Part shown: one piece after another, positions 1,592 through 40,399 of the stretch
How the letters are laid out: every line of letters starts with the position of its first letter
Numbering within the stretch: the first letter of the stretch is position 1
Assembly (NCBI GenBank): GCA_020348925.1
Contig: CP070758.1
Coordinates: forward strand, 3,106,026 to 3,170,025
DNA: 64,000 nt
Source of the DNA: Gemmatimonadota bacterium
GTDB lineage: Bacteria; JBHIER01; G020348925
Direction of reading: 5' to 3'
Notes under the pieces: model-generated
Database searches by the model: none
What the model was told of the DNA's origin: nothing
Seen by the model: the letters and a program-made list of their open reading frames with translations, nothing else
Program-made: the position numbers and the translations under genes

Positions 1592-1633
1592 GAAGTATAT
1601 AGTATCTGTAGCATCAAAGGGGAGTCTGTCCTG

Positions 1634-2296: not shown

Positions 2297-2423
2297 AGAA
2301 ATCTTGACATTCATGCCTACCGAACCGAATGAAATCAAACCTTGCCTTCAATCGGAGAAGCGCATGGAAATTTGAGAGACAACTTTTCACAGATATTTTC
2401 ATAAATTCCGACCGGTTTTCCAT

Positions 2424-5557: not shown

Positions 5558-5587
5558 GATAAAATCTTCGAAATGGAGAACAAGAGC

Positions 5588-18802: not shown

Positions 18803-21800
18803 TTATTTCATCAACACCATTCTCTTGGTTGAAGTGAAATCGCTGGCCTGCATCTGATAGAAGTAGATACCGCTGGCGACTTCCTCCCCCGTGTCGCTTC
18901 GTCCATCCCAGGTCAACAGGTGCACGCCGGCCTGCTGTTTCTCATTCACGAGAATCTTCACCACCTGACCCAGGACATTGTACACTGTCACAGAGACTTG
19001 AGTTTCTTGCGGCAGCGAATACAGAATCTCCGTCTCAGGGTTGAAGGGATTCGGATAGTTCTGTGCGAGATTGAAATCAGAGGGCATAACGAGCCCCTTA
19101 CCTACGGAAATCTCACATTGGCTGTTCCCTTCCAACGTAAGGGACCTCATTGTTCTCATGTTGACAACCCGATCGTTCACTCTCATGAGGACATCGAGAT
19201 CCGGGGGGATCGCCGCTACATCCCAATCCAGCGTGAACTCGCCGCGTTCCTTCACTTCCAGAACATACGTGGCCGTCGTTCCGAACGGACGCACGTCCCG
19301 GCTGTATCTGTCGAAGATTTCATGGTCACTGGCAAAGTACGCCTCGAAAGTGGCTGCCATCGGACTCGGGGGTGGTGTGGGTTTATCGCAATGCCTATCG
19401 AAACCGGGCGTCGCAGTGGGTGCAAGACCGAACTCTAAGACCTGAGACTTCGTGCCCTTCGTCACGGTCACAGAAGCCAGCGGCAATGTCTCCTCCGCAA
19501 CACCTGTGACGGTTTTGGCCGCAGGCATTTCCCCACTCAACGTCAAGGTTCCGGCATAAAGTGCTGCCAACCAGTAGCCCTTTCCAGATTGAACGACTCC
19601 CGTTATTTTATAAATCCCGAGAGCCGGATCGTACCACTGCAGTGTCTTCGGCAAAATATTGCCCGCCGGAGTATCAACAAAAGCTCCTGTGTCGGTTTCA
19701 GCGGCTATGGATCCGACCATGTTCCAGCCGGCAAGAATATCACTTGTGTAGTTCATGACCGGAATACCTGACAGCACTACTGTTTGAGGCGTCTCCACGG
19801 CCAGCCAGTATCCGTCGCCGATCTCAAAAACATCGACCTCCACATAATCGGATCCGTTCCAGCCGAAAGCACCGACATTCCCCGGAAAGAGGACATCGAC
19901 GTCGTAATCGTCAGGAACAACCGACAGGGAGACCATGTTCCAACCGGCTGCCAAATCCACCGATACTTCGAAGGGGATAACTGTTACTGGGATCGCATCG
20001 GTAAACGTGACATTATAGGTTCCAGAAATCTCCCAGCTTCCGATCTGACACGCCTCATAAACATTATCCGTAAAGGAGCCACAGGGGTCCGTTGTACCGA
20101 ATTCAGTCACCCCAGTGACATCGGTCTCATTTCCGGCTTCATCATAAGCCATGGCTGTATAGGCCATCTCACTCCCGGAAACCACCGTTGTCTCAGGAGT
20201 AACTTCGATGCCCACAATAGGACCCATGGTGACATGGACAAGGGCCGTATCAGACAGCTCAGCATACAAACCAATAACAGCCCACGTTCCGACGTAACAG
20301 GCCTGGTAGATATTGTTGAACCACTGACTGCAGGAGTCGGTCGCGTCAAAAATGGTTGAATCGGTTACCTCCCATTCGACGTTGCCATCCGTAGCCATCG
20401 CCCGGTATGTCACCGTCTGACCTGACGCTACCGTTGTATCCTGAGGATAGACTGTGATTCCGATGATCTGTCCGCGAGGGACAATGGTTACATGCGCCGA
20501 ATCGACCAGCTCACCGTCAGTGGCGAAGACCCAGCCTTCCATCTCCAGAGAATCGGCTGTAAAACAGCCGGTCGCCGGATTCATCGTTCCTATTTCAGGA
20601 GGCGTCACCGACCACGTCGGCGAAACGGCCACAGGATTGTCGTTCAAGTCAAAGCCTGAAGCTATGAAACAGAACTCCTGACCGTATCCCAGCTCCTTTG
20701 AGGCCGGTGTGACATCAATCCGCACCAACCCTTCGGCGACAACAGTCACGGAGACGGAATCCTTGGCCGAACCCTCGGCGATAACCCAGCCGTCACCGGC
20801 CTTTATTCCTGTGAACAGACCGGCGGCATCGATGTTCCCCAGCTCGGGCGGTGAGACCGACCACGTCGGAGTTGCCGCGAACTCATTGCCGCAGGCGTCC
20901 AGACCCTGGGCCGTATATTGCAGTGTTTCGCCTGAGATGACCACTTCACCGTCCGGGGAAACCTCCAGTGTGATCGGAGCCCCGGGGATAACGGTCACAT
21001 CTGCTGAATCAACAAATCCGGCGGCACTGGCTATGACCCAACCGCTTCCAACCTGATCCCCGACGAGCACACCGCCCTCGGTAATGGTCCCCAGCGTCGC
21101 AGGAGAAACGCTCCACGTTGGATCCACGGTGAACGGATTGCCGCACCCGTCATCGCCGAGGACTGCGAACTGCTGCTCGGCTCCGCAGGCGACACTTACC
21201 GGATCCGGGGAGATCACAATCATACTCATATCACCGGCGTTGACGGTTACGGCCGCAGAATCGACCAAACCGTCCAAGGTTGCAATCACCCAACCCGAAC
21301 CGGCGAGACCTGGTGTGAAAAGTCCGTCAACCGACATGGTACCCAGTGTCGTTGGCGAAACACTCCAGTCAGGCGTAGGTGTGGTGGGATTGCCGTTGGC
21401 ATCGACGCCGGAAGCAGTAAACTGGATCGTTTCAGGACAGGTCACGGTTCCTTCGTCAGGAGCTATCGTCATCGTCACGGAGGGACCGGCAACGACCGTC
21501 ACAAAAGCGGAATCTACCGGATTCGTAGATGCGACAATCCATCCCTCACCGGCCAGAACGGCCGTAAACAATCCCGCCTCATCGATAGTTCCCAGGTCAG
21601 CCGGATGCACCTCCCAGTCAACATCAACAGGAAGTGCATTGTCACAGGCGTCGTATCCTGTTGCCGTATATTGCTGATCCGATCCGGAGGCAACTGTGGC
21701 GTCATCAGGTGTGACATCAATGTAATCCAGTTCACCGGCTGTCACTGTCACAGCCGCAGAATCAACAATAGTAGTTTCAGTGGTATTGTCCGTCGCAATA

Positions 21801-22513
21801 ATCCATCCCTGCCCAGCCTGATCGGCCGTAAACATGCCCGTGACGTCGATCGTTCCCAGTGTCGCAGGGGCGACGCTCCAGACCGGATCGGTCGGTGCAG
21901 CGTTGTCAAACTCGTCAAAGCCTTGAGCAGTATATTGCTGATTTGCACCACACACGACCTGCGCCCCCTCGGGTGTAACCTCGATTCTCACCAGTTCTCC
22001 GACAAAGGATCGGGTTATCGTGAACCCGTACTCATAATCCCCAGATATGGGATTCAGCGTGCCGGTCACCATCTGGGAATCGACGGTTCTCATGTCAACG
22101 GTATCATTGAACATGAAATTACCCGTATCCGGCAGAGCGGCAGGATCCCACGCGAAGAAGTACGTTTCAGAATCCGAGATAATAGCACCTTGCCATACGA
22201 TTTCGATGTCTACATCCGGTCTGATGTCCTTCCAAAACTTGTAGGGAGCCACCAGAAAAAACACGTCCAACTTGTGAGGCGGTGGCGTCGGAGGTGGACT
22301 CTGGACATCCAAACTGTCGAGGCCATCATCTGCCGCTGGATCGACACCGATTGTGAGATTGACAAGTCCCGCGAGAGGGTCTGAGCTCGAGACTTCAATA
22401 CCCACTTCCCAGGTGGGATCGGCAGCAGACACATTAGCCATGAAGCTAACGCACAAGAACGAGAGTCCCACAATAATCGCCCAGCGGGCTTTCGCACTCT
22501 GAACCACGTTCAT
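18803..22513 (-). CDS. Exported protein with eight Ig-like (BIG/Big_2-type) repeats and sorting domain
   Basis: Surface or secreted protein of 1236 residues. ATG at 22513 is preceded by AAGGAGG and starts a clear signal sequence (AIIVGLSFLCVSFMANVSAA); codons further upstream are not signal-like. In order: unnamed module copy (about 33-165), eight tandem beta repeats of 80-90 residues (six close copies with a TLGTID..GLFTA..AGSGWVIA pattern, two divergent with Cys pairs), a paired GWNMV module (about 845-1010), a second module copy (about 1015-1130) and the sorting domain ending TKRMVLMK. The repeats resemble bacterial Ig-like stalks of adhesins. The ligand is unknown. Confidence 0.82.
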   Translation of the reverse strand: MNVVQSAKARWAIIVGLSFLCVSFMANVSAADPTWEVGIEVSSSDPLAGLVNLTIGVDPAADDGLDSLDVQSPPPTPPPHKLDVFFLVAPYKFWKDIRPDVDIEIVWQGAIISDSETYFFAWDPAALPDTGNFMFNDTVDMRTVDSQMVTGTLNPISGDYEYGFTITRSFVGELVRIEVTPEGAQVVCGANQQYTAQGFDEFDNAAPTDPVWSVAPATLGTIDVTGMFTADQAGQGWIIATDNTTETTIVDSAAVTVTAGELDYIDVTPDDATVASGSDQQYTATGYDACDNALPVDVDWEVHPADLGTIDEAGLFTAVLAGEGWIVASTNPVDSAFVTVVAGPSVTMTIAPDEGTVTCPETIQFTASGVDANGNPTTPTPDWSVSPTTLGTMSVDGLFTPGLAGSGWVIATLDGLVDSAAVTVNAGDMSMIVISPDPVSVACGAEQQFAVLGDDGCGNPFTVDPTWSVSPATLGTITEGGVLVGDQVGSGWVIASAAGFVDSADVTVIPGAPITLEVSPDGEVVISGETLQYTAQGLDACGNEFAATPTWSVSPPELGNIDAAGLFTGIKAGDGWVIAEGSAKDSVSVTVVAEGLVRIDVTPASKELGYGQEFCFIASGFDLNDNPVAVSPTWSVTPPEIGTMNPATGCFTADSLEMEGWVFATDGELVDSAHVTIVPRGQIIGITVYPQDTTVASGQTVTYRAMATDGNVEWEVTDSTIFDATDSCSQWFNNIYQACYVGTWAVIGLYAELSDTALVHVTMGPIVGIEVTPETTVVSGSEMAYTAMAYDEAGNETDVTGVTEFGTTDPCGSFTDNVYEACQIGSWEISGTYNVTFTDAIPVTVIPFEVSVDLAAGWNMVSLSVVPDDYDVDVLFPGNVGAFGWNGSDYVEVDVFEIGDGYWLAVETPQTVVLSGIPVMNYTSDILAGWNMVGSIAAETDTGAFVDTPAGNILPKTLQWYDPALGIYKITGVVQSGKGYWLAALYAGTLTLSGEMPAAKTVTGVAEETLPLASVTVTKGTKSQVLEFGLAPTATPGFDRHCDKPTPPPSPMAATFEAYFASDHEIFDRYSRDVRPFGTTATYVLEVKERGEFTLDWDVAAIPPDLDVLMRVNDRVVNMRTMRSLTLEGNSQCEISVGKGLVMPSDFNLAQNYPNPFNPETEILYSLPQETQVSVTVYNVLGQVVKILVNEKQQAGVHLLTWDGRSDTGEEVASGIYFYQMQASDFTSTKRMVLMK

Positions 22514-22734
22514 AATAAAATCCCTCCTTGAATAAGGTGAATAATGTGATACTTTTTCTCTTCGTGATGGTCGCAACCGACTGGCCATGCACTTATCAAT
22601 GGTAAAATTGTTTTCGACCTCTAAAACCTCCAACACATGCTCTTTGAAAAGTATGCAAACCACAAGTGTAGGGTACGAACAACTCTTTTCGATTACCTAA
22701 TGAAACCTCTCAATAAACCTCTCAATGTACCGTG

Positions 22735-23018: not shown

Positions 23019-26000
23019 TTACTTCACAAGGACCATACGCTTGGTATCGACGTACCGGCCAGCCATGATACTGTAGATGTACACACCGGTCGAGACCATC
23101 TCGCCGTTGTCGTTCGTGCCGTCCCAGATGACTGTGTAGTAACCGGCGGACTGCTGCTCGTTCACGAGCGTCCTGATCTCCTGACCGAGGACGTTGTACA
23201 CCTTCATAACCACAGTGCCATCCTCAGGCAACCCGTAGGTGATGTTCGTCTCCGGGTTGAAGGGATTGGGATAGTTCTGAGCCAGTTCAAAGGTCTTCGG
23301 AACGGTCCTGACAACAATGTCAAGATCGTGCGGTCCCTTGGCCAGGCTGATGCTGTTCTGCGAACGCATATCGACCTCAACGCCATCAATCCGGAGTCTG
23401 GCAGCCATGTCCTGAGGAACGGCCAAGACATCCCAGGTTATGGTGAGGGCCGATTCAGCATCCACATTCAGCCTCCATGAGTTATCCTCCAATCCCCGCA
23501 CGTCTCTCCAGAAGTTGGAGACGATACCGAAGTCACTGGTGAAGTGCGCCACGAAGTCAGTCGAGGGAACGTCCGGCGGAGCAGGTCGGTCGATGCGCCG
23601 ATCGTAGGCGCTGGTGGCCAACTCTTCAGCACCGAACTCCAACGTCTTCACTTCGGAATCGCTCTGGACAGTGATCCTCGACATCCAGGTCGGCTCGATC
23701 ATCTCTTCGGTCACGACCGGAACTCTGGCCACGGACGCATCCACAACAGCCACCTCGATGGTACCGCTCTCCTCGGCCAGCATCCAGACCGAACCACCGG
23801 CCTTGATCGTACCGGTCGGCAGATAACCGCTGCCTCCCCATGCCCAGATGTTCATCGGGCTAATCCAGGTCGGGAACATACCCGTGCTCACATCCACGAT
23901 GGTGGAGATGGCCACGTCCTCGAAACAGGATCCGACCAGGTTCCAGCCGGCTGTGAGATCCTTCTGGAAGGTTCGGATCGGCAGACCGGTGATCTCCTCG
24001 AGATCAGCGGCACCGTACAGCAGCCAGTACCCTTCACCCTCAGCCGCTTCTTCAGCGGTCTGATAACCGCCGTTGTACTTCCAACTGGCCACGGCGTCGG
24101 GGAAGAGGGTGGTCAAGGTGGCATCATCAGGAACCACCGGCACCGACACCATGTTCCAACCGGCACTCATGTTGTACGCGAAGGGCTCCTCGCAGGTGAT
24201 GACCGTGACGGCCGTCGAAGCGCTCTCGTTGCCGGCGTGGTCCGTAGCGGTCACGTAAACAACATCGCCCGCTGTCAGAGCCGCACCAATCGTGGCGCTG
24301 AAACTACCGTCGTTGTTCGCATCGAACTCGACCAACACATCGGTCAACATGCTGCCGCTGTAAATGGTGACCCTGAGCGCGTTGAGATCCGGATACCACT
24401 CGGTGCCCACCGCTGAAGGATCGCCGGTAGCTTGACCGTTGTCGCAGATGGTGATCTTCGTCTCATCAGGAGCACCGGGTGCCGTCACATCGATGAGAAT
24501 GTGGAGACCGGTGTTCCCGGCTCCCTCGGCTTCCTCGATATCGACGAGGTTGCCGGCGGTATCCCGCTCCTTGACGAAGACGTCGGCCACACCCTCGGAG
24601 GTTTGGTTCGCATTGGTGACGTTCCAGGTGTAGTGGTAATCGGTGGTATCTTCCATTGGCGGACGGTTCATCCAGCGATCGAAGGTTTCGCCCAGACCGC
24701 ACGGCACGAGTTCGTCACCGCAGGCCGGCACACCGTCGATGTCCACCAGCTCACCGGGAGCGTAAACGAAGATGTCCATCCAGCACCACAGCCGTCCGTC
24801 GCCGGGCAGCTCGGGCTTGACCGTCTGGTCGACCTCAATGTGAACGTCGACCAACTGCCTCGTCGTCACCGGGATCATGCCGTAAATGGGATGCTCAATC
24901 ATGGGCAGCGGTCCCCCATCAGCCTCGAACTCGTAGGTGATGTGGTAGATGGGATCCTCGCTGTCCAGAATGATGTAGGCCACATCCGGGAACTCGGTAC
25001 CGTCAACATAAATCTCGGAGTTGACGATCCACAGTCCGTCGTTCGGCGCGGTCTCATCGTAGACCACCCAGTTGTAGCCGTAGTAATCAAACCCATTGTA
25101 ATTGGTCAGCACAACCCACGTCCCGGAATTCGGTCCGCCATCCCGGTAAATGGGATTTCTCGGGAAATTACTCGTCCCCTTGGCCGGGATGTGCGTCAGG
25201 ATCGAATCGACCGGCGTCCCTGTTCCAACCCTGTACGTGACGAAGAGATTGTCTCCTGGATAGAGACGACCCCTGACCGTGCACGGCGTCCAATACAGAT
25301 CGCAATCAGGATCGTATGTGTAGGTGGTGATGGGAATCCAGTAGATATCGCCCATGGGATCGTCAAGCCCCCACAGACCTGGCCAATCCGTTTCGATGGC
25401 ATTCACGAACGCATCGGGCAGATCCATGGCACGCCCGCCGCGCTCAAAGCCGACGAGGATGGCTCTCCAGAAGAAGGTCACGTCTTCGCAACCCACCAGT
25501 CCGGCGCAGTCGGTCACCCTCAGGCGGAGCAGGTACTCGGCCAGGGTGTTCTCCGGCATCCAGTGATGGGGATTGTCGACCTCGTACCACGTCTCACCGT
25601 CATCCAGGGAGTAGTGCCATTCCGTATCGGCCAGGCAGACCTCGTTGGTCACCTCAAAGGTGAGGGCCAGATAGTCGGCGGTCACCACCTGATCCTGGAC
25701 AGGATTGGTGATGGTCACATCCGGCGGATCGTTGTCAACGACAATATCGATCTCCACCAAGGACGTATCGGTATCGAGAGGACCACAGTCGGAGATGACC
25801 CTCAGGTCGATGGTCGCCACCTGACCGAAGGCGGCCGCATCGAGCGTGCTCCAGGAGTAACACGTGCAGTCGTCGATCTCGCCATACTCGGTGGCCGTGA
25901 TGTCGTTCCAGGCCACACCATCGTGGAACTGCCAGGTGACGTCACTCAGCAGCTCGGGATGGGAGAAGTAGGCGCACAGCAGCGCGTAGTGCTGGTTATT

Positions 26001-29000
26001 GGTGCACGAGTCATCCGGTGCAAAGCCCGAGATGTAGTCACCCTCGAGAGGCGAGCAGATCTCGGGTGGATCGCAGCCCTTGAAGAGCTTGAAGTCGCAG
26101 TACCACGGCTTCATCTGGTTGCAGGCCGTATCGCTGAAGCGGTAGAGCATCATGGTCGCATCGCCCTGCTCCATGCGGTGGTCGTCGAGATCCATGACGC
26201 CGACCCAGGTCTTGTCGTCGGACCCGATCCAGCCGGGCCTCGTCACCTCGACCATGTCGGCCCGGGCCTTGGGATAGTCGTCCTGAGTCACACCGCGGAC
26301 CGTCCAGACCTTGCCGGCGGCGTCCTCGAACTTCACCGAGAAATCCTCCTCGGCCACATCCATGTTATCGTTCCAATGGACGAAGCAATAGACGCGGCTG
26401 GGCATGTTCAGGGTCGTCTGACCGTCGCACTCACCGATGATATCCTGGCCGTACACGTCGTAGGCGAATTCGACCTTCACCGGCATGGGCTTGACGTTAT
26501 CGAGGATCAAATACTCGCCGTAATCCCTCGAATCGACAACCCGGACATTGCCCAGATTGTCGGAGACGAAGATCTTTGCGTACAGGGTATCCTCAGGCAC
26601 ATCGAGCCAGACGCAACCCCAGTCATAAGGATGGAGCTTGTAATAGCAGTCGACACCTTCCCACGGTACGAGAGGATACCAATAATAGTAGTACTCGTTC
26701 ATCTCCAACCATTCCCAGACCCAGTCGGGAACATGCTGCTCAAAGAAGGTGCCCTCCGGTTGCTCGAAAACATCTTTCATGAAGTCCGGCACCCACTCCG
26801 GCCACTCACGTGCAGGGATTTCCATATCAAGATCGTTCCACTTCGTGAGCGCTGATACCAGATAGAAGTTGATATGCGCGTATTGAAAATCCCTTAATAG
26901 ATTATCGTCGACTTGATCCCTGGATTCGGCCTTGACCTCGTCGGTTAGGACTCGATCAAAGAGCCAAAACCAATCGCAGTCAAAACCGACACCGCACTCG
27001 GTATTGTCGACGACGCCCTCGATCCACAGCTGGAAGTTACCGTAATCTTCATCAGTAACCTGATGCGGATTGAGGTTGCACGAGCTGACGTCCTCGTACC
27101 CCTTGACCGTGTGGAGGTTCATGTCAACAATTTCCGGCCCCTCCACATCAAAGATGAAGGTATGGACATCGACGTACGTCGTATCCGGGATGCCGTCGTA
27201 GCAGGCGCATACGTCCCAATCGGTCTCCCCACCATTCACAAGACAATCGCCGTTCTTCTCCGGCGGTATGAGATCTTTGTTGGGCTCGGGCGGACATTCC
27301 TCGCACCACAGATCGAGGAGACTGTCCGGTCCGAAGAGGGCGAAATCGGCCTGGGCCGAGACGCTCACCTCGACCACATCGCAGTGCTGGAAGTGGAGAT
27401 ACTGCGGGTAGAACGGACCGTCAGGCCCCTGCTGCTCTCCCAGATCCCAGACCGTGGGCAGGACCAGCTTGAGGTTGATCCGCTCAGGGGTATAGTGACC
27501 GTCCACGCAGACCCGGTTGTCCCCTTCGTACCAACCCCACAGGTCGCACTCCTCGCAGCCCGGCTGATAATACGCATCGTAGGCCACATGCCACTGATCG
27601 TTCCGCTTCACCCTGACTTTCATCCTGGCCGTGTCGAAGAAGAAGTGGTCGGTGTTCGTGTTGATGGAATGGCCGACCACCGGGCCGTGTATCCGATCTT
27701 GACAACCGCCGCAGGGAGGGAAACACTCAAAAAAGAGCGTGTACCAGTTGGCATATTCGGCCGGAAACATACCCTGACAGAAATGCCACTCCCAGCAATC
27801 GCCATTATCAAGAAGTGTCTCACACGTTTCCCAGGTCCTCAACGAGTAATCGAAAGGATGGTACTCGTCCGACCAGTACCTGTGCGGTTCCATGAAGGGG
27901 AAGCGCTCGATGTCGATCTCGAAGTAGGTCGAGCCGCAGTTGGCCGTTTCCCAACGAGGTACCGGGCACGGCTCGCACAGCTGGCAGCTGATGTTCTTCC
28001 ACTCGACATCGCAGTGGTCGCACCAACCGACTCTGACGCCGATGGTGGTGATGCCCTTGGTGTAAAATTCATTGAAGAAGTAATGGGCGGCCTGACAGTT
28101 GAGATGCGCTCCGAAGAGCTTTATCCAGTTATGCCTCCGACCGCAATTGCCGTCAGGCCAGACGGCATCATAACAATCGAACCACCAGCCCATCTCGTCA
28201 GGATGGTTCCAGTGGATCCTCCTGCTGCCTTCCCAGCCTTCCAGGGTGTCGCGTTTCCCATCGGCCTCAACCTCGAATTGCAACCAGACTCTGTTCTTGT
28301 TCACGCCGCTGAAGAGGCAGTTGAACTCCTGGTTGAACCACTCGGGCCATTCGAGGGGCCAATTCATGAACCACATCAGGGTGTCCATCTCGGCCTGCGG
28401 CACATCGACGATGGCGAAGGAGACGAAGTTGGAATCGAGCTCGCAGCAGTGCTCGTACCAGTGATCCCAGTGCCACACCATCCTGGGGGTGTACTCGTCC
28501 ACGTTGAAATCCCACGTGTACGGTATCTCAGGGATGTTGTAGGGCGCGTCGCAGCAGACCGATTCATCGTAGGGCAGTATCTGGACGCAAATATGGTCGC
28601 CATCGTAGTAGGGCAAGCTGCCGTCATCCAGATAGTCCTCGAGCCACTCCGGAGGATTGAAAATGACGGTGTCCTGATGACCGGCAACTTCGGCCTCGTG
28701 CGTGAAGTTGGCCACATCCATCCAGCCGCCTGTCCCCGGATTATCTCTGTCGAAAGGTGACCCGTGGCCGGGGATCCGTTCGCCCACTGAGTTGAAATGG
28801 AACTTACCACCGTCGATGTCGGTGATCTTGATCTTCATCCAACCGCCGCCGACCCCGCTCCCATAACCGCAATGCGGGGACCCGCTCCCACCGCAGATCT
28901 GATCGTAGATCTGACACATGATGGGCGTGCAGGAGTCGCTGGTGTAGGAATCGTCCGGCGGATAGATCGACGATTCGTCCACATAGGGCGGTTCGGTATC

Positions 29001-30956
29001 GACGCAGAAGCACGGATTGTCCTGCGTGTCGGACTCGAGCCAGGCGCAGTTCTTCTCGAAGCAGTCCTCCTCGCCACAGCAATCATCGTTCTGCTGAGCC
29101 TTGCCTGCCCGAGCGCAGGACCACGAGTTCTCGTCCCACGGCACATTGACCGCATCGCAGGCGTAGACATCGATGCAGACGTGATCGCCGGTCTTGTAGT
29201 AGCAGTCCGGCGGATCGAAGATCAAGTAGGGCGGTTCCCATCTGACGTAGTTGATGGTACTATCAATGATGGTGCCCAGACCAGGGCCTTGAAGCTCACC
29301 GGCGGGGGAGTAATACCTCATATATGGAGGTTGAGAACACCCCTCCACCTCCACCGCAATCATGAGGGAGTCGGGATCGACACCCGCAGGTTCGATTTCG
29401 CAGGCGCAGGCCTGACCAATGTCATCCACGACCTTCCAGCGGACCATCTGCCCTGTGTCACTGGTGTAACACAGCGTGCTGTAGGTGACATCCTTCCAGG
29501 CGACACCGTCGTGGCTGCACTCCATGTCCGCGATCTTGGGCGGTGTGCGGTCCACGGTGAAACTCCAGTGGACGTCCCTGTTCCAAATACCTCCCTGATC
29601 CTTGGCGTGGACGTGGACCGAGACGAGCCAGCCGTCCTTCCATTCTAAATCCGGCGCTCCGTACCCAGGATGCCCCGGAGCGATCTTGACCGAATCGATG
29701 CACTCCTTGCCCAGGAAGACGGTGAATCCTAATTCCAGGTCATCCCTGGCATGCTGTCTGTTGTACCCGGGACTCGCATTCAAGTATTCGCAAGGCCACG
29801 GCGGCCCTGGACAGGCACAAGGTTGATAGACCGGCTCATACCCGTTGAATTGTCCGGTGCCCGTATAGTAGAGCAGCTGATACATCCACAGCGTATCCGG
29901 ATTGCCGTCGCCGTTCACGTCGAGCCACCCGGCTCCCGGACCGGTCCCGAAGGCCTCGGTGCAGGTATCGATGAGGACGTAGGAGGAGCACCAGTCGACG
30001 CACTGGCCGAAATCCCAGGCCCTGAATCGGATCACCTGAAAGAGGTCGCTGGTATAACTGCCGTCCGGAGGACTGATGATCTCAACCTCCGGTCCCTCCT
30101 CAACATCGTATCCGCGAATATACTGGGCCTGGTCGTACCATTCCGGTCCGCTTCGATAGTCGTGATCTTCGGTGAAGTTGATCTCGGTGCGCTCCGTGGT
30201 CGGGTCGTAAAATGCGGATCCGTCAGGACCGTTGATCGTCACGTCCTCCATATCTTGGATGAGGACCGCAAAGGTGTCGTTCGGAGCCAACCCACCCATT
30301 TTGTAACCTCCCTCGACCAGGTGGCATCCTTGACTCCGGACGATCATCCACACCCGGATATGCTCGAGCCGTATCTGGCCCGCATACTCGGTGACCTCAT
30401 CGATCTCAATACCGTACCCTTGAAAATCGAAGAGAGCCTCCCACGTATTCGGGTCAACAAGGTTCCAGGTGTCATCTCCGGTTCCCGGTCCATTAATATC
30501 CGCAATACGAACTTGAATATCCTCGATGGGGATGAACTCGTGAGGATGGGCTCCGTTCTCCAGGTAGAACTGCACGCCGGCTGTCGTGTCCTTCCCTGCA
30601 AGAAGGGGTTTGATGTCCTGATCCGGATCGAAGTTTGCCCCTCGACCAATGAGGGTCACCAACACCGAATCCATGGCCGCACCTTCCTGATCGTGACGAT
30701 AGTCGAACCGGATCACCGGCGTCCGCTTGCTCGAATAGAGCATCGAATCCGGTGTGGCTGGAGTGCAGGCAGTCCTCGTACCCCAAGGATTGGTGATCGA
30801 CCCGAAGGTCGAAGGAATGCAGTCCGGCACATCCGCCGTGTCGGGTTTGACCAAATTCCACACTTCCTCATGGCGCCATTGCGCGTTCGCTGTAGAGCTG
30901 AGCACAATGAGCACCCCCACAATTCCCAGAGTCAATAGTAACCTAAACTTATTCAT
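23019..30956 (-). CDS. Giant exported Cys- and Trp-rich protein with sorting domain
   Basis: Predicted surface protein of 2645 residues. ATG at 30956 has AAAGGAG upstream and opens a signal sequence ending TANAQ; an upstream TTG/ATG run to 31034 is not signal-like. Most of the length is a series of beta-domain segments introduced by PPDGSYTSD, PPKIADMECS, PPYVDESSIYPPDD or DNDPPDVTITNP, resembling Ig-like domains. They are unusually rich in Cys, Trp, Tyr and Asp (for example CACPGPPWPCEY and CCGEEDCFEKNC). Near the C terminus come a paired GWNMV module, one copy of the unnamed module and the sorting domain ending TKRMVLVK. Function is unknown. Abundant Cys suggests disulfides or metal binding outside the cytoplasm. 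Confidence 0.82.
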   Translation of the reverse strand: MNKFRLLLTLGIVGVLIVLSSTANAQWRHEEVWNLVKPDTADVPDCIPSTFGSITNPWGTRTACTPATPDSMLYSSKRTPVIRFDYRHDQEGAAMDSVLVTLIGRGANFDPDQDIKPLLAGKDTTAGVQFYLENGAHPHEFIPIEDIQVRIADINGPGTGDDTWNLVDPNTWEALFDFQGYGIEIDEVTEYAGQIRLEHIRVWMIVRSQGCHLVEGGYKMGGLAPNDTFAVLIQDMEDVTINGPDGSAFYDPTTERTEINFTEDHDYRSGPEWYDQAQYIRGYDVEEGPEVEIISPPDGSYTSDLFQVIRFRAWDFGQCVDWCSSYVLIDTCTEAFGTGPGAGWLDVNGDGNPDTLWMYQLLYYTGTGQFNGYEPVYQPCACPGPPWPCEYLNASPGYNRQHARDDLELGFTVFLGKECIDSVKIAPGHPGYGAPDLEWKDGWLVSVHVHAKDQGGIWNRDVHWSFTVDRTPPKIADMECSHDGVAWKDVTYSTLCYTSDTGQMVRWKVVDDIGQACACEIEPAGVDPDSLMIAVEVEGCSQPPYMRYYSPAGELQGPGLGTIIDSTINYVRWEPPYLIFDPPDCYYKTGDHVCIDVYACDAVNVPWDENSWSCARAGKAQQNDDCCGEEDCFEKNCAWLESDTQDNPCFCVDTEPPYVDESSIYPPDDSYTSDSCTPIMCQIYDQICGGSGSPHCGYGSGVGGGWMKIKITDIDGGKFHFNSVGERIPGHGSPFDRDNPGTGGWMDVANFTHEAEVAGHQDTVIFNPPEWLEDYLDDGSLPYYDGDHICVQILPYDESVCCDAPYNIPEIPYTWDFNVDEYTPRMVWHWDHWYEHCCELDSNFVSFAIVDVPQAEMDTLMWFMNWPLEWPEWFNQEFNCLFSGVNKNRVWLQFEVEADGKRDTLEGWEGSRRIHWNHPDEMGWWFDCYDAVWPDGNCGRRHNWIKLFGAHLNCQAAHYFFNEFYTKGITTIGVRVGWCDHCDVEWKNISCQLCEPCPVPRWETANCGSTYFEIDIERFPFMEPHRYWSDEYHPFDYSLRTWETCETLLDNGDCWEWHFCQGMFPAEYANWYTLFFECFPPCGGCQDRIHGPVVGHSINTNTDHFFFDTARMKVRVKRNDQWHVAYDAYYQPGCEECDLWGWYEGDNRVCVDGHYTPERINLKLVLPTVWDLGEQQGPDGPFYPQYLHFQHCDVVEVSVSAQADFALFGPDSLLDLWCEECPPEPNKDLIPPEKNGDCLVNGGETDWDVCACYDGIPDTTYVDVHTFIFDVEGPEIVDMNLHTVKGYEDVSSCNLNPHQVTDEDYGNFQLWIEGVVDNTECGVGFDCDWFWLFDRVLTDEVKAESRDQVDDNLLRDFQYAHINFYLVSALTKWNDLDMEIPAREWPEWVPDFMKDVFEQPEGTFFEQHVPDWVWEWLEMNEYYYYWYPLVPWEGVDCYYKLHPYDWGCVWLDVPEDTLYAKIFVSDNLGNVRVVDSRDYGEYLILDNVKPMPVKVEFAYDVYGQDIIGECDGQTTLNMPSRVYCFVHWNDNMDVAEEDFSVKFEDAAGKVWTVRGVTQDDYPKARADMVEVTRPGWIGSDDKTWVGVMDLDDHRMEQGDATMMLYRFSDTACNQMKPWYCDFKLFKGCDPPEICSPLEGDYISGFAPDDSCTNNQHYALLCAYFSHPELLSDVTWQFHDGVAWNDITATEYGEIDDCTCYSWSTLDAAAFGQVATIDLRVISDCGPLDTDTSLVEIDIVVDNDPPDVTITNPVQDQVVTADYLALTFEVTNEVCLADTEWHYSLDDGETWYEVDNPHHWMPENTLAEYLLRLRVTDCAGLVGCEDVTFFWRAILVGFERGGRAMDLPDAFVNAIETDWPGLWGLDDPMGDIYWIPITTYTYDPDCDLYWTPCTVRGRLYPGDNLFVTYRVGTGTPVDSILTHIPAKGTSNFPRNPIYRDGGPNSGTWVVLTNYNGFDYYGYNWVVYDETAPNDGLWIVNSEIYVDGTEFPDVAYIILDSEDPIYHITYEFEADGGPLPMIEHPIYGMIPVTTRQLVDVHIEVDQTVKPELPGDGRLWCWMDIFVYAPGELVDIDGVPACGDELVPCGLGETFDRWMNRPPMEDTTDYHYTWNVTNANQTSEGVADVFVKERDTAGNLVDIEEAEGAGNTGLHILIDVTAPGAPDETKITICDNGQATGDPSAVGTEWYPDLNALRVTIYSGSMLTDVLVEFDANNDGSFSATIGAALTAGDVVYVTATDHAGNESASTAVTVITCEEPFAYNMSAGWNMVSVPVVPDDATLTTLFPDAVASWKYNGGYQTAEEAAEGEGYWLLYGAADLEEITGLPIRTFQKDLTAGWNLVGSCFEDVAISTIVDVSTGMFPTWISPMNIWAWGGSGYLPTGTIKAGGSVWMLAEESGTIEVAVVDASVARVPVVTEEMIEPTWMSRITVQSDSEVKTLEFGAEELATSAYDRRIDRPAPPDVPSTDFVAHFTSDFGIVSNFWRDVRGLEDNSWRLNVDAESALTITWDVLAVPQDMAARLRIDGVEVDMRSQNSISLAKGPHDLDIVVRTVPKTFELAQNYPNPFNPETNITYGLPEDGTVVMKVYNVLGQEIRTLVNEQQSAGYYTVIWDGTNDNGEMVSTGVYIYSIMAGRYVDTKRMVLVK

Positions 30957-31810
30957 TGGCTCACTCCTTTTAAGAGTTAGACGTTTTTGGTGCTTCCAAC
31001 TTATTGGACTCGTCTTTTCGTCCATACGCTCCATCCTCCTTTCGGTTTTAATGGTTTGAATGATATGAAGAAATATACCAATAGAAATAAGTACGTTCGT
31101 TCCTCCCCCCTTTCGTAATGTAAATGTTATTAAGTGATTTCATTCGTAAACACATATGATACTTTAAAAATACTTAAAACCCACCCTTCCCCCTGGTACC
31201 CAAGTCCCAAAAGACGCTACACGATATGGATGGTGACTCTGTTCAATCCTTATGTCAAGTTTAACATATACGAAGCCCCTTGTCAAGTCTTTTTTTACAG
31301 TTTTCACAACTTTTAGTAATCCAGGTTGACGCCTTAAGTATTCGCTTTCAACTGTCGGAGAAAATGTAAGATATAACATCACACATGTCAAGCATTTTTT
31401 ACATATTCTCCTTCGCCCGAACAGCCTTAAAAATCGTTGTAATATATCAGACAAACCCCTCATTTGTCAAGCTTTTTTTTTAAAAAAAATGAAAAAAATT
31501 CAATGCCTTAGGAATTAAAAAATGATTCTTTGCTCCAGCGTATTGATTTTCAAGCACTTATTGAATCCCGCGGAATATCCGCTTTTACGCAATATATTGG
31601 GTTTGTACCTGGAACAAACGCCTAAATATGGTATATTGTGCTTGACTTTTCGTTTATGAGCGGACAGAATCGAAGGCGGAGTTCTCCGAGAGAAAAAGTG
31701 TTCTCCGTCCATGAAACAGGGCCGGCAAAACAGCTCCGGTGATGCGAAATTTTTGTCAGGGTGAATCCCGCTCTCGTCGTGGCGTCTCTTCGAGGTCTCT
31801 GTTCTCCCGG
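30957..31810. other. AT-rich intergenic region upstream of the giant gene
   Basis: About 850 bases without a credible gene, much more AT-rich than its flanks. It contains the ribosome binding site of the giant gene, four TTGACA boxes on the minus strand (described separately), homopolymer T/A runs at 31471-31500 and a short GCGGA-ata-TCCGC hairpin followed by TTTT on the plus strand near 31570-31586. No clear terminator for the epimerase gene ending at 31811 was found. Confidence 0.6.
31230..31470 (-). promoter_or_regulatory. Tandem sigma70-like promoter boxes for the giant gene
   Basis: Four perfect TTGACA boxes on the minus strand at 31465-31470, 31386-31391, 31281-31286 and 31253-31258. 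Matching -10 boxes are TATATT (31441-31446, spacer 18), TACATT (31363-31368, spacer 17) and TAAACT (31258-31263, spacer 17); the last box has only CACCAT. The first two are convincing. All point toward the gene starting at 30956, giving a leader of 300-480 bases. Confidence 0.6.
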
Positions 31811-32752
31811 TCACAATTGATAGACTTCCCGAACCCATGACATCTCCCTCTGCAAACCCTCTTCAAGCTGAACCTTGGGTCTGTAATGAAGCAGTTCTTC
31901 AATTTTACTGAGATCCGCCCAGGTGTGGCGAACGTCCCCCTTCTGCACGTGCGTCCATTTTATTTTTGGCGCTCTTCCCAGGAGATCCCCCAGTGTTTCC
32001 ACCACACCCCTCAGCGATACTCTGCTCCCCCCACCCACATTGAGAACTTCACCAGGAGTCGCATCGAGGGCTAAAAGATGCGCCTCCGTCACATCCGATA
32101 CAAAGGTATAGTCCCTCGTCGACGAACCATCACCGTATACCTCAAACTCATCATCACGCAACAGCGCCTTTATAAATTTGTGAAAGGCCATGTCCGGGCG
32201 CTGGCGCGGACCGTAGACCGAAAATAAACGGAGCGCGACAACAGGCACATCATAACTCTTCCAATAGAGATGGCACAGATGTTCGGCCGCCAGCTTGGAA
32301 ACACCGTACGGGGAAACAGGTCTGCACGCAGCATCCTCCCTCATGGGAAGATCGTTCGTATCGCCGTATACGGAGGAGCTGGAGGTGAAGATGAATCTTT
32401 TGAGGGGACAGGCCGTCGCCGCTTCCAAAAGCTTTTGCGTCGCCAGGATATTGTTTTTCGCATAAATGTCGAAGTGGGTTCCCCAGCTCGATCGAACGCC
32501 GGCCTGAGCGGCCAAATGAAAAACGTATTCGACACGACTCAGGAGTTGTCCGAAATCCACATCAAGGATGTTCTCCTCAAGAAACGTGAACCCGCCGTCT
32601 CCACGCAGAGCACTCATATTGGATTCTTTCAACCGCCGCGGATAAAAGCCCTCAAAAGAATCGATCCCAATGACCTCGAAGCCTCGTGTGATCAACTCCT
32701 GTGCTACGTGAGATCCGATAAATCCTGCCACGCCTGTGACCAGAGCTTTCAT
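31811..32752 (-). CDS. NAD-dependent sugar epimerase (SDR family)
   Basis: Extended short-chain dehydrogenase acting on a nucleotide sugar, probably a UDP-glucose or UDP-glucuronate 4-epimerase. The nucleotide-binding motif is TGVAGFIGSHV; the active site has SSSSVYG and YGVSK, and the binding site has RLFSVYGPRQRPDMA. The length of 313 is normal. GVRSSWG and the overall pattern are closest to the GalE/uronate epimerase group, but the substrate cannot be fixed from sequence alone. It is last in a run of four sugar-nucleotide genes and 123 bases after rmlB. Confidence 0.86.
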   Translation of the reverse strand: MKALVTGVAGFIGSHVAQELITRGFEVIGIDSFEGFYPRRLKESNMSALRGDGGFTFLEENILDVDFGQLLSRVEYVFHLAAQAGVRSSWGTHFDIYAKNNILATQKLLEAATACPLKRFIFTSSSSVYGDTNDLPMREDAACRPVSPYGVSKLAAEHLCHLYWKSYDVPVVALRLFSVYGPRQRPDMAFHKFIKALLRDDEFEVYGDGSSTRDYTFVSDVTEAHLLALDATPGEVLNVGGGSRVSLRGVVETLGDLLGRAPKIKWTHVQKGDVRHTWADLSKIEELLHYRPKVQLEEGLQREMSWVREVYQL

Positions 32753-32875
32753 AGATCTCCCTCTTCAAATCGCCTCATGTCCTCACGTCCGACGTCACAA
32801 TCACTTCGTACCTGTGGTGCTCGATCGTCTCCCCGACAGTTGGGTTGCACATGCGCCCTCATCCTTTATATACCT

Positions 32876-33910
32876 TTATATACTTTTATACACGTTTTCG
32901 TAATACTCCAAATATTCCTGAGTCATGACGCTGTTCAGCCAGGCCCGATTCTCAAGATACCACTCGATCGTTCGCTCCAAACTGCTGTTGAACTCCGCCT
33001 GAGGACGCCACCCCAGGGTCTGCTCTATCTTTCGATTATCGAGAGCATATCGAAAGTCGTGGGCCGCACCGCGAGGGTCTTCGATGAAACGAATCTTTGC
33101 TCTCAATCCTCGCTTCCCGATCTTCTGCTCCAGGAGAATGCAGATGATCTCCACGATGTCGATATTTTTTCTCTCGCACTTCCCGCCCGCATTGTAAATC
33201 TCTCCCACCTTTCCCTGCTGCAATATCGCGTCGATGGCGCGACAGGTATCCTCAACGTACAGCCAGTCCCGGACATGATTCCCCTCCCCGTAGACGGGGA
33301 GCTCCTTATCGGTGAGCGCATTCTGTATCATTAAAGGGATGAGCTTCTCGGGAAATTGATAGGGGCCGTAATTGTTCGAGCTCCTCGCGATGAGGACCGG
33401 CACCCCGTAGGTCCGATAGTACGCCTGGCAGAGCATATCGGCGGCAGCCTTGCTGGCCGCGTACGGAGAACTCGGGTTCACGGGGGACACCTCGGAGAAC
33501 GTCCCGGACGCCCCCAACGATCCGTACACTTCATCCGTTGATATCTGAACAAATTTTTCCACCGGGTACTGACGTACCACCTCAAGCAGAACCCGAGTCC
33601 CCATGACATTGGTCTCAAGAAAAGGCGCCGCATCAAGGATACTTCTGTCCACATGAGACTCCGCGGCGAAATGCACCACGGCCTTGAACCGCTCCCCCTT
33701 GAACAGCGAACGCACAAGGGTACGATCACCGATGTCTCCTTTTCGAAATGAATAGCGGGGGTCGCCCTCCACATCTTTCAAGTTCAGGAGATTTCCGGCA
33801 TACGTCAGCTTGTCCAAATTCGTAATCCGACACTCCGGACGCTGCCGCAACACAAAGCGGATGAAGTTGCTGCCGATAAAACCGGCTCCACCCGTTATTA
33901 AAAGATTCAT
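32876..33910 (-). CDS. rmlB: dTDP-glucose 4,6-dehydratase
   Basis: Makes dTDP-4-keto-6-deoxyglucose, the branch-point precursor of rhamnose and other deoxysugars. ITGGAGFIGSNFIRFVL, HFAAESHVDRSI, STDEVYGSLG, YAASKAAAD and RSSNNYGPYQFPEKLIP are all RmlB hallmarks. ATG at 33910 gives 344 residues and aligns with the family start; codons upstream to 33955 overlap the cupin gene. It starts one base after the cupin stop, so the two are coupled. RmlA and RmlD are not in the window. Confidence 0.93.
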   Translation of the reverse strand: MNLLITGGAGFIGSNFIRFVLRQRPECRITNLDKLTYAGNLLNLKDVEGDPRYSFRKGDIGDRTLVRSLFKGERFKAVVHFAAESHVDRSILDAAPFLETNVMGTRVLLEVVRQYPVEKFVQISTDEVYGSLGASGTFSEVSPVNPSSPYAASKAAADMLCQAYYRTYGVPVLIARSSNNYGPYQFPEKLIPLMIQNALTDKELPVYGEGNHVRDWLYVEDTCRAIDAILQQGKVGEIYNAGGKCERKNIDIVEIICILLEQKIGKRGLRAKIRFIEDPRGAAHDFRYALDNRKIEQTLGWRPQAEFNSSLERTIEWYLENRAWLNSVMTQEYLEYYENVYKSI

Positions 33911-33911
33911 C

Positions 33912-34385
33912 TCATTCACGTCTCCTGTTCCAATCGTAGGGAATCGAAGGATCATCGTAGGGGACGCGGTATTCGTCCGGCTTTTCGTAATTGTACAGTT
34001 GTGTCGGGAAATTGATCATGAGCACCGGCCGGTCACTCTCCGAGGTGAACCCGTGGTACACCAGCGGAGGAATTTTGATCAAGGCGGGTTGTGACGCATC
34101 AACGCGGAATTCGTTCACAGCGCCTCTCGTCGGACTGTTCTCCCTGGGATCATACAGAACGATTCTCGCCACACCCTGAATACAGACAAAGTGATCCCAC
34201 TGCGCAGTATGGTAATGCCACGCCTTGACGACTCCGGGGTAACAGGCGGTCGCGTAACACTGGGCAAATGTCTCAAACTCCGGCCAGTCGCTCCGCAACA
34301 TCTCCACGAGATATCCGCGGTCATCCGAGATACGCCTGAGATCTTTCACCCGAACACCCTCAATCGGATGTGTCGGGACTGCCAT
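33912..34385 (-). CDS. RmlC-like cupin sugar epimerase
   Basis: Cupin-fold protein of the dTDP-4-dehydrorhamnose 3,5-epimerase family, 157 residues. The start at 34385 has a very strong ribosome binding site (AGGAGGGGGGAG); an in-frame codon at 34412 is less likely. Family features include DDRGYLVEMLR, the metal-free cupin His cluster KAWHYHTAQWDHF, VYDPR-like LYDPREN and IPPLVYHGF. It is shorter than classical RmlC (about 180), so it could be an RmlC paralogue working on another keto sugar. It is coupled to rmlB. Confidence 0.8.
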   Translation of the reverse strand: MAVPTHPIEGVRVKDLRRISDDRGYLVEMLRSDWPEFETFAQCYATACYPGVVKAWHYHTAQWDHFVCIQGVARIVLYDPRENSPTRGAVNEFRVDASQPALIKIPPLVYHGFTSESDRPVLMINFPTQLYNYEKPDEYRVPYDDPSIPYDWNRRRE

Positions 34386-34496
34386 CTCCCCCCTCCTGTC
34401 AGGACGAGCCATGCGAGATCACCTTGTGATTACAGGAGAGGAATGGAAATTGTCCTGCTTCTCGTCTCCCTCTTGTCGTCCTCTCCATCTCAAACT

Positions 34497-35840
34497 CTAA
34501 ACCTTCACAATCTTTTCCCGCTGGCCAACGGTCCTGCGGGTTGCATTTCTGGTATCGATAATCAGGTGCGCGGCGTCGACAATCCACTGGTAATCGTACG
34601 ACGAATGATCGGTGGCGATGAGGACGCAATCCATCTCGGACAGGAGGTCCTGCTCCAGTGCGACGGATACGACCTCCCCCTGCTTGCCGTGAGAGGGAGC
34701 ATACTCCGCAACAAACGGATCATTGTAAGAAACAACAGCTCCTTTGTCTTGAAGCAGCTCCATGATTTTCAGAGCGGGCGATTCTCTCAAATCGCCAACG
34801 TCTCTCTTATAGGTTATACCCAGTATCAAAATTTTGGACCCTTTGAGGCTCTTCCCTCGGTTATTGAGTGCTTCCATGGTACGGCCGACCACGTAGTAGG
34901 GCATGTTTGTATTGATCTCACCGGAGAGCTCAATAAACCTCGCCGAGAAATCATACTCCTTGGCCTTCCATGAGAGATAAAAGGGATCTATCGGAATGCA
35001 GTGGCCGCCCAGACCCGGACCCGGATAAAAAGGCATGAAGCCGAAAGGCTTCGTGGCGGCTGCCTCGATAACCTCCCACACATCAATGCCCATTCTCTCG
35101 GCCAACATTTTCAATTCGTTGACCAAAGCGATATTGACGCTTCGAAATACGTTCTCGAACAACTTAGTAAGTTCCGCAGCTTTCGCTGAAGAGACGGGAA
35201 CCACGTTCTCAACGATAGCGCCGTACAGAGTGGTCGCGGCCTGCAAACAGGCGGGTGTGATTCCTCCCACCACTTTCGGCGTCGTCCGAATCGAATAGTC
35301 TCTATTGCCGGGGTCCTCCCTCTCCGGTGAATAGGCCAAGTAAAAGTCCCGGCCGACACGCATTCCCCTCTCCTCGAATATGGGCAGCAACAGCTCCTCC
35401 GTGGTTCCGGGATATGTTGTGCTTTCGAGGACGATCAACTGGCCTCTCCTGAGATACCGGGCCACCTCCCGTGCGGTCGTCTCGACGAAACTCAGATCCG
35501 GCTCCCTCTTCGTTCCGAGGGGTGTGGGAACGCAGATGTGGATGCTGTCCACTCCGGACAAGAGGGAGAAATCATTGGTGACCGTGATCCGTCCCGCTTG
35601 TTGTATTCTCTGTATTCTCTCCGAAGAGATATAGCTGATGTAACTTTCCCCCCCCTTCAGCTTCACTATCTTGATGTCATCGATATCAAACCCCAGAACG
35701 CCAAAAGACGCCTCCCCAAATTCCATGAGTAAGGGCAAACCAACGTATCCTAAGCCAATAATCCCGATCGTTGTTTCTTTGCGTTCGATCTTTGTCACAA
35801 AATCTTTGAGCCCGTCAGTTCCCATATTCATGACTTGCAT
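34497..35840 (-). CDS. UDP-N-acetyl-sugar 6-dehydrogenase (WbpA type)
   Basis: Oxidises the C6 hydroxyl of a UDP-N-acetylhexosamine to a carboxylate with NAD, giving precursors for surface polysaccharide. The N-terminal Rossmann motif is GIIGLGYVGLP. The catalytic Cys lies in PGPGLGGHCIPIDPFYLSWK, a signature matching WbpA/UDP-GlcNAc dehydrogenases. Other family marks are ESTTYPGTTEE and GITYKRDVGDLRESPA. ATG codons at 35840, 35831 and 35825 are all possible, none with a strong ribosome binding site; the frame stays open to 35921. The length is about 447 residues. Confidence 0.87.
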   Translation of the reverse strand: MQVMNMGTDGLKDFVTKIERKETTIGIIGLGYVGLPLLMEFGEASFGVLGFDIDDIKIVKLKGGESYISYISSERIQRIQQAGRITVTNDFSLLSGVDSIHICVPTPLGTKREPDLSFVETTAREVARYLRRGQLIVLESTTYPGTTEELLLPIFEERGMRVGRDFYLAYSPEREDPGNRDYSIRTTPKVVGGITPACLQAATTLYGAIVENVVPVSSAKAAELTKLFENVFRSVNIALVNELKMLAERMGIDVWEVIEAAATKPFGFMPFYPGPGLGGHCIPIDPFYLSWKAKEYDFSARFIELSGEINTNMPYYVVGRTMEALNNRGKSLKGSKILILGITYKRDVGDLRESPALKIMELLQDKGAVVSYNDPFVAEYAPSHGKQGEVVSVALEQDLLSEMDCVLIATDHSSYDYQWIVDAAHLIIDTRNATRRTVGQREKIVKV

Positions 35841-35997
35841 TCCGAGGCGAAAGAGAGGATTCAGGATACTCAACCTGTACCATGCTCTCGAATGAACGAA
35901 AGGCGTCGACGAAGGGGACAAACGCGGAGACTCCTTTGAAATGTGTACGGCATCGTTCGAAAAGGGTCATCCCGTTCGTGCTGGCGACGTCACTCAT
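35815..35997 (-). CDS. Possible 60-residue ORF coupled to V-ATPase subunit D
   Basis: The ATG overlaps the subunit D stop as ATGA and is preceded by GGAGG, which is typical of translational coupling. The product of 60 residues (MSDVASTNGMTLFERC ...) has no motif I recognise, no membrane segment and one Cys. Its stop overlaps the possible start codons of the UDP-sugar dehydrogenase. It could be a real small protein, or a leader that carries ribosomes to the next gene, or chance. Confidence 0.3.
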   Translation of the reverse strand: MSDVASTNGMTLFERCRTHFKGVSAFVPFVDAFRSFESMVQVEYPESSLSPRNASHEYGN

Positions 35998-36673: not shown

Positions 36674-38099
36674 TCATGAGGAGGAGATCCCAGATTCTGC
36701 AACCGCTTCGACCTTCTCACCCTTCCGAAATCGAGGCAGATATTTTTCGATCCACTCCGGTCTGATCCTCTTCAACTCCACTGTGGGAAAGACCGACAGG
36801 AGTTGCCAGCCCAAATCGAGCGTCTCCTCGATCGTCCGGTCCTCATATTCTCCTTGCGAGACGTATCCGGCCTCGAATTTGTCGGCGAAATTGAAAAACA
36901 TTCGATCCGCCTCGCTCAGAGCCGCCTCCCCCAGGATGACGGCCAGTTCCTGAGCCTCCTTCCCCCGGGCGTATGCGGCGAAGAGCTGGTTGAAGATATC
37001 GGAGTGATCCTCCCTGGTTTTGCCCTCCCCGATTCCTTTATCTTTGAGACGGGAGAGCGAGGGGAGGACATCAATGGGAGGTGACACACCTTTTTTGTGC
37101 AAGGCTCTTGAAAGAATGACCTGACCCTCGGTGATATAGCCGGTGAGATCCGGAATGGGGTGGGTCTTGTCGTCCTCCGGCATGGTCAGAATAGGAATGA
37201 GCGTTAATCGAGCCCCGTTTCCCCTTGATGCGGCCCGCTCTCTCGTAGAGTGAAGCCAAATCCGTGTAGAGATAGCCCGGATAGCCTCGGCGCCCGGGCA
37301 CCTCCTTTCGAGCGGCGGAGACCTCCCGCAGGGCTTCGCAGTAATTGGTCATATCGGTTAAAATAACGAGAACGTGCATATCCTTTTCAAAAGCCAAATA
37401 TTCGGCTGCGGTGAAGGCCATGCGGGGTGTCGCGATCCGTTCGATTGCGGGATCGTCGGCCAGATTCAGGAACAGAACCGCTCTTTCGATGGCCCCGGTC
37501 TGGCGAAAATCGGAGGTGAAAAAATCGGCCTCCTCGAAGGTGATGCCCATGGCGGAAAAGACGACGGCGAAGACCTCCTCCTTGCCCAATACCTTGGCCT
37601 GTCGAGCGATCTGGGCGGCCAAACGATTGTGGGGCAATCCGAAGCCCGAGAAGATGGGCAGCTTTTGGCCCCGGACGCACGTATTCAGCCCATCGATGGC
37701 CGAGATGCCTGTCTGAATAAACTCCGAAGGATACTCCCGGGCGTAGGGGTTGATGGGATTGCCGTTGATGTCCACCCGCTTCTCCGGCAGAATATCCGGC
37801 CCCTTGTCGATGGGGCGGCCCAACCCGTCAAAGACGCGACCCAACATGTCCTCCGAGACCCCCAGTTCGATCCCCTTGCCCAGAAAGGTGACACGACTCT
37901 GAAAGACATCCACCCCCGTCGCTTCCTCGAAAAGCTGGACCAGGGCTTTATCCCCATCCACCTCAAGAACTTTTCCCCGCCGTCGCTCCCCGTTGGGCAG
38001 TTGCAGTTCCACCAGCTCCTCATACTTCACACCCTCCACCTCCTCCACCAAAACCAGAGGACCGGCAATCTCACGAATAGTCAGGTACTCTTTCAGCAT
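36674..38099 (-). CDS. atpB: V-type ATPase subunit B, interrupted by a one-base frameshift
   Basis: Non-catalytic nucleotide-binding subunit of the headpiece. The N-terminal part (from ATG 38099, AGGAG at eight bases) runs [17 protein letters not shown] to [20 protein letters not shown] and is normal through about residue 298. One extra T on the plus strand at 37204-37205 then breaks the frame inside the conserved [15 protein letters not shown] block. Removing one base restores a continuous 474-residue protein through [11 protein letters not shown] to the end at 36674. Both halves are well conserved, so a sequencing or assembly error is more likely than a dead gene, because the complex needs this subunit. 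Confidence 0.88.
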
Positions 38100-38127
38100 A
38101 TGCACTTCTCCTGCATCATTTCTTGCG

Positions 38128-40398: not shown

Positions 40399-40399
40399 A

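Follow-up and report, generated by a model that had tools for sequence, protein, structure and literature searches.

The gene on the minus strand at 23019..30956 of the window (the whole 64,000-nucleotide stretch of DNA analysed here) encodes a giant Cys- and Trp-rich T9SS cargo protein. Judged by profile alignment, it is a distant relative, over most of its length, of a family of giant proteins of about 3000-3350 aa. This family appears to span three deep-branching phyla, namely that of the window, the candidate phylum UBP14 and that of the genome G094, and the positions kept across the three support constraint on the Cys and Trp residues of the giant. A structural coat role would be its most likely role. 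Our leading, although tentative, interpretation is a T9SS-exported, surface-held, S-layer-like coat protein, for which we infer surface attachment, abundance, a lattice, further modules besides the single modelled one and a partnership with the companion protein encoded next to it.

The open frame runs on the minus strand from 31034 to 23019 (2671 codons). Met27 (position 30956) is the likelier start, since AAGGAG lies directly before it and a signal-peptide-like stretch, read by eye, follows it (MNKFRLLLTLGIVGVLIVLSSTANA, residues 27-51, 30882..30956, minus strand); residue 4, preceded by AGGAGG, is an alternative possible start. Counted from Met27, the protein has 2645 aa. The 2671 codons include 86 Cys (3.22%) and 105 Trp (3.93%), concentrated in the N-terminal part (80 of the 86 Cys within residues 1-1918 and 83 of the 105 Trp within residues 1-1900), with eight Cx(2-4)C motifs. 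Both motifs quoted by the first-pass annotation, CACPGPPWPCEY (residues 406-417, 29784..29819) and CCGEEDCFEKNCAW (residues 652-665, 29040..29081), are present on the same strand. The 36 other ORFs taken as genes in the window range from 0 to 2.83% Cys and from 0 to 2.79% Trp. Second to the giant in Cys among the 37 ORFs compared is a 283-residue ORF on the plus strand at 5573-6424 (2.83%). The annotation had also described a residue pattern unlike that of the two neighbouring exported proteins, which agrees with the lower content of both residues in the two downstream cargo proteins (1.32% Cys and 2.26% Trp at 18803-22663; 0.81% Cys and 1.08% Trp at 15883-18105).

As a yardstick for this composition we used 47 proteins with T9SS tails from the giant's own genome: four lie in the window, four at paralogue loci, and 39 come from 40 loci taken by match rank. 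The set omits L140, which the tail pattern missed, and one ranked locus with an internal stop; its entry for L041 is the longest tail-bearing ORF, not the paralogue itself, and masked letters in 5 of the 47 slightly lower the percentages. The median Cys content of these siblings is 1.21%. Three of them reach 3.22% Cys, one reaches 3.93% Trp, and none exceeds 3% in both. The density that had been called unusual is thus real, and it is unusual as a combination of Cys and Trp; Cys-rich cargo alone is not rare in this genome. One sibling (L138) has 98 Cys in 2259 residues, several others are Cys-rich as well, and in two (L117 and L120) short Cys motifs recur, for example CCLPDGSC and CCLADNSC. A known Cys-rich repeat, of the kind found in L138 (TSP3-like by reading), was considered as the source of the Cys and set aside, as no such Pfam repeat matches the giant.

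Searched against its own genome, with 150 of the 268 candidates from a first look scored, the giant gave at least 153 matches; among the matches listed, the majority cover the tail only. The 5.04 Mb genome, the sole sampled member of its phylum, holds more than 100 T9SS-type tail matches. Because of this number, a major role for the giant in particular is our inference. Three paralogues share with it, in whole or in part, the stretch of residues 1885-2278 (24201..25382, minus strand; 54% identity), and these paralogues are Cys-poor (0.33-0.81%, two of them partly masked). Elsewhere in the window, another T9SS-tail protein with Ig/cadherin-like stretches (38128-40455, minus strand) is encoded between the genes for the A (40400-42154) and B (37071-38105) subunits of the V-type ATPase.

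The first-pass annotation had called the giant exported, and this can be sharpened to T9SS cargo. A type A sorting domain (TIGR04183 / FlgD_ig) at residues 2588-2668 (23031..23273, minus strand) scores 30.3 bits against an NCBIfam cut-off of 23, while PF18962 on the same C-terminus scores 20.3 bits, below its Pfam cut-off of 27. The SprA/Sov translocon (TIGR04189) is encoded in the same genome, with neighbours, at 708.1 bits (cut-off 200). Because of the sorting domain and SprA, the giant is probably exported to the cell surface. It would cross the inner membrane by Sec, via the signal peptide at Met27, and the outer membrane by means of the type A domain, and would then probably be held on the cell surface. 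In T. forsythia, T9SS cargo is tied to a surface sugar from the Wbp/Vim pathway (excerpt of PMC7468200). In the body that precedes the tail, the only Pfam or NCBIfam match above cut-off is one Big_6 stretch.

The relatives in UBP14 came to light through a protein of the genome G003, which was reached via its tail and is a relative with 3095 residues. The N-terminal part of the giant matches P0004 by BLASTP (8e-12). Family matches are present in 14 of the 17 sampled UBP14 genomes and were not found in the other three (G059, G065 and G073). They comprise 12 complete ORFs of 2998-3353 residues and two partial ones, one cut by a contig end and one a fragment (G066). The UBP14 giants contain 1.28-2.37% Cys and 2.51-4.28% Trp. 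A profile of 13 of them aligns by hhalign with the window protein from position 15-3079 onto 19-2671 (2408 columns, 100% probability), and hmmsearch with the UBP14 profile gives a separate N-terminal match at 5.1e-15. The strength of this relationship is uneven along the protein: 349.5 of the 410.8 bits of the hmmsearch score come from the C-terminal 540 residues, the middle is weak segment by segment, and only four of eight segments rise above 6.5 bits. A plain protein search with residues 27-1980 matched none of the 17 UBP14 genomes.

A profile that included the window protein, run over 386 genomes, matched five of them, namely the protein's own genome, three UBP14 genomes and G094. The last, the one genome sampled of the third phylum, holds two partial copies, both running off their contigs. 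The window protein alone as query found no relative across the genome-contig collection, the UBP14 alignment found none across viral contigs, and PDB sequences matched neither the window protein (E up to 0.1) nor the UBP14 alignment (E up to 1). No description of the family was found among the papers listed by searches of open-licence PMC. Present in 14 of the 17 UBP14 genomes and with relatives in two further phyla, each from one sampled genome, the family gives the impression of a core part of the envelope in bacteria that are known chiefly from metagenomes. UBP14 giants such as L043 (from 4243) and L084 (from 4911) have a frame that is open upstream of the likely start; this upstream part closes with RKEKGVM or similar, as if a Shine-Dalgarno sequence had been translated.

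Conservation within the family bears directly on the Cys and Trp. The UBP14 alignment has 642 columns conserved at 90% or more, including 25 Cys and 41 Trp. The window protein covers 23 of these Cys columns and retains 11; of the Trp columns it covers 36 and retains 21. The numbers retained were identical in an earlier profile alignment (11 of 25 and 21 of 41), although not all at the same positions. The two G094 fragments retain 8 of 9 and 10 of 14 of the Cys columns, and 4 of 9 and 11 of 15 of the Trp columns. It could be argued that the Cys richness is an accident of composition in a large, loosely constrained surface protein, given that three of the 47 sibling cargo proteins are equally Cys-rich and that only 11 of the 86 Cys fall on family-conserved columns. 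However, the retained columns exceed the 3-4% expected from composition, even if the excess is somewhat inflated, as alignment programs favour such matches. Because these conserved Cys and Trp columns are kept, drift is largely disfavoured, and we regard it as highly improbable.

Whether the Cys form disulfides is a separate matter, and here the earlier suggestion of extensive disulfides is not supported. Even-Cys bias has been tied to DsbA and DsbB/VKOR (excerpts of PMC12453122 and PMC7678975). The giant's own Cys count is even (86). Cys counts of the 13 UBP14 giants, one of them truncated, are odd in 7 and even in 6, and among the 47 siblings 33 are odd, 12 even and 2 zero, so that odd counts outnumber even ones. 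For the 38 unmasked of 43 fetched siblings, counts made at six cut points gave 21-26 odd vs 10-15 even, with even never ahead. Parity is weak evidence, and it shows no even bias in either set. A search of the genome for disulfide machinery likewise gave no match to VKOR, Thioredoxin_4 (DsbA-like) or DsbB, families which matched in 3, 9 and 6 of 14 control genomes, respectively.

A disulfide-hardened extracellular fibre, in which Cys pairs lock the modules, would suit the 3.2% Cys, the conserved Cys columns and the Cys kept at 259 of 281 aligned positions over five pairs of sister genomes. Yet the Cys of neighbouring genes are about equally conserved (133 of 148), so this conservation is not special to the giant and we dropped it as evidence for disulfides; by reading, moreover, the Cys changes among sister genomes are mostly single. 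Together with the parity counts and the missing enzyme matches, this leaves the disulfide reading weakened, and we consider the fibre unlikely. Obligate anaerobes tend to keep Cys out of exported proteins, according to an excerpt of PMC12453122, a tendency that would apply here if this organism is such an anaerobe. Against that background, the question arises of how cargo that is in part Cys-rich is handled by a genome with no match to DsbB, VKOR or Thioredoxin_4.

The Cys could instead belong to a metal-loaded or free-thiol surface protein, whose CxxC/CxC clusters would act extracellularly, either as ligands of zinc, iron or copper or by reaction with sulfide. Twelve of the 13 UBP14 members and the third-phylum fragment L154 share a CxxC...C cluster, and the window protein has a CxxC at or near it: one alignment pairs CEEC...GDC (residues 1244-1264, 27243..27305, minus strand) with the CxxC...GC cluster of the UBP14 and third-phylum homologues, while the earlier profile alignment places the counterpart CEEC at residues 1160-1163 instead of 1244-1247. 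The eight Cx(2-4)C motifs and the failure to find the three oxidising families in the genome also fit such a protein. On the other hand, the remaining UBP14 member (G060) has lost the CxxC while retaining the following Cys, no metal-protein family in Pfam or NCBIfam scores above cut-off, and the structure prediction for this stretch is of low confidence. We therefore give this explanation only a small probability. Slightly less improbable, in our assessment, is a version that joins the two questions, i.e., a Cys/Trp-rich giant coat that is conserved in three deep phyla and, in this organism, occurs in the absence of the customary enzymes of disulfide formation, where the 86 Cys would be free thiols, metal ligands or residues oxidised extracellularly by an unknown route after T9SS export.

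Structure prediction gave a partial view of the body. AlphaFold models of residues 305-1060 and 1040-1670 have mean pLDDT of 34.5 and 37.8, with nearly all residues below 50 outside residues 1514-1652. That segment (26079..26495, minus strand) is predicted as an Ig-like beta sandwich, and over most of its length the pLDDT block means are about 50-80. Among its structural matches are two S-layer proteins, SbsC at Z 8.5 and SbsB at Z 8.3; TssM (9.4) and CopC (9.1) rank higher, so that the Ig-like likeness is generic. Foldseek on the predicted structure returned nothing at E 0.001. Under the coat interpretation, large Ig-like beta modules, strongly diverged from one another, would follow in series along the body, and Cys and Trp would sit both in the module cores and in the loops. 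There the conserved Trp residues, probably together with many of the Cys, would help to pack the modules and to cross-link them locally from within.

Ig-like modules and giant length are also typical of adhesins. The protein might accordingly be a giant adhesin, stalk or capsule tether, that is, an extended single-molecule surface protein which binds polysaccharide or cells and forms no lattice. Adhesins, however, often vary in repeat number, whereas the matching UBP14 genomes have one locus each, alignable over the whole length, and the modules are not near-identical repeats: slices of the UBP14 family compared with one another show faint internal repeats only (best 87.8% probability in 496 comparisons). 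The single-locus point is qualified by a further frame of 4375 aa in G060 (L106, G060:C54:10392-10553), beside that genome's own giant; this frame matches the giant profile weakly and in part (1.1e-6).

The gene neighbourhood is shared in part between the window and UBP14. A companion gene follows the giant in all 12 UBP14 loci that hold the downstream side, and all 12 companions match one another. A T9SS-like tail is visible in 4 of the 12, among them the complete companion of G003 (1587 residues); the others are cut before their end. We built a companion profile from 11 of the 12 (G072 left out) and ranked 49 tail-bearing ORFs of the window's genome against it, with tails removed. The best was the third T9SS-tail cargo of the window locus (15883..18105, minus strand; second gene downstream of the giant), and the third was the second T9SS-tail cargo (18803..22663, minus strand; next gene downstream, with Big_2 stretches); rank two went to L119, which is unlinked to the giant. 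By this ranking, relatives of the UBP14 companion appear to follow the giant in the window too. In the coat interpretation, the giant would join with a neighbouring second T9SS protein in an S-layer-like outer coat bound to a surface polysaccharide, on the model of TfsA and TfsB of Tannerella forsythia.

On the upstream side, an ORF of 490-518 residues (376 where cut) precedes the giant in all 12 UBP14 loci that hold it, and the one tested, that of G003, is Wzi-like (PF14052, 2.5e-10). Beyond it, G003 has genes for a dTDP-4-dehydrorhamnose reductase and a glycosyltransferase-like protein. The upstream genes of G060, G069, G071 and G074 resemble these by eye; six loci of one family (G061-G064, G067 and G068) have different genes beyond the Wzi-like ORF. 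No Wzi-like gene is adjacent to the window giant, whose upstream gene encodes an epimerase/dehydratase. It belongs to a set of nucleotide-sugar genes at 31811..35921 (minus strand), coding for an NAD-dependent epimerase/dehydratase, a dTDP-glucose 4,6-dehydratase and a nucleotide sugar dehydrogenase, the last of which might have a part in making an anchor sugar for T9SS cargo here, although it passes only the broad model TIGR03026. Because a glycan neighbourhood is not general in UBP14, the coat interpretation is weakened. The Wzi-like gene before the G003 copy and the sugar genes before that of the window count for the adhesin or tether as well, which on balance we consider possible but somewhat unlikely.

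Three promoter-like sites, found by consensus match, precede the giant on the minus strand: TTGACA-17-TAAACT (31258..31286), TTGACA-17-TACATT (31363..31391) and TTGACA-18-TATATT with TG before the second hexamer (31441..31470). Thus three of the five exact-TTGACA sites in the 64 kb stand in tandem within 213 bases upstream of the giant, an arrangement that, as far as sequence can indicate, fits strong expression. Two UBP14 homologues have 3 and 4 such sites vs 1.7 and 2.9 in shuffles. A/T-rich stretches lie upstream of the promoter-like sites (31258-31470), and the leader would measure about 230-490 bases, depending on site and start. Rfam gave nothing at gathering score in the window.

Compared with known systems, the giant is like other T9SS type A cargo in its C-terminal domain, its signal peptide (by eye) and the SprA of its genome, and it differs in a body that, apart from the Big_6 stretch, matches no family above cut-off. 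The Geobacillus proteins SbsB and SbsC resemble residues 1514-1652 at the level of fold only. They and the Deinococcus protein HPI are smaller than the giant, with different anchoring and secretion. HPI has seven Ig-like domains (excerpt of PMC12175726). The Mobiluncus mulieris adhesin, as described in an excerpt of PMC10619420, is likewise a giant Ig-like surface protein, with cross-links that include disulfides; it is built of 51 repeat domains in 7651 residues, in contrast to the faint repeats of the UBP14 family. The comparison that bears most on the coat interpretation is with Tannerella forsythia, a Gram-negative bacterium whose S-layer consists of two T9SS-dependent proteins, TfsA and TfsB, of 133.3 and 150.8 kDa without signal peptides (excerpts of PMC4175972 and PMC12175726), and is absent in T9SS mutants (excerpt of PMC4175972). 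The giant is likened to them by general features, namely two large T9SS-tail surface proteins (excerpt of PMC4175972). If true, the coat interpretation would extend the idea of a T9SS surface coat from Tannerella to deep uncultivated phyla.
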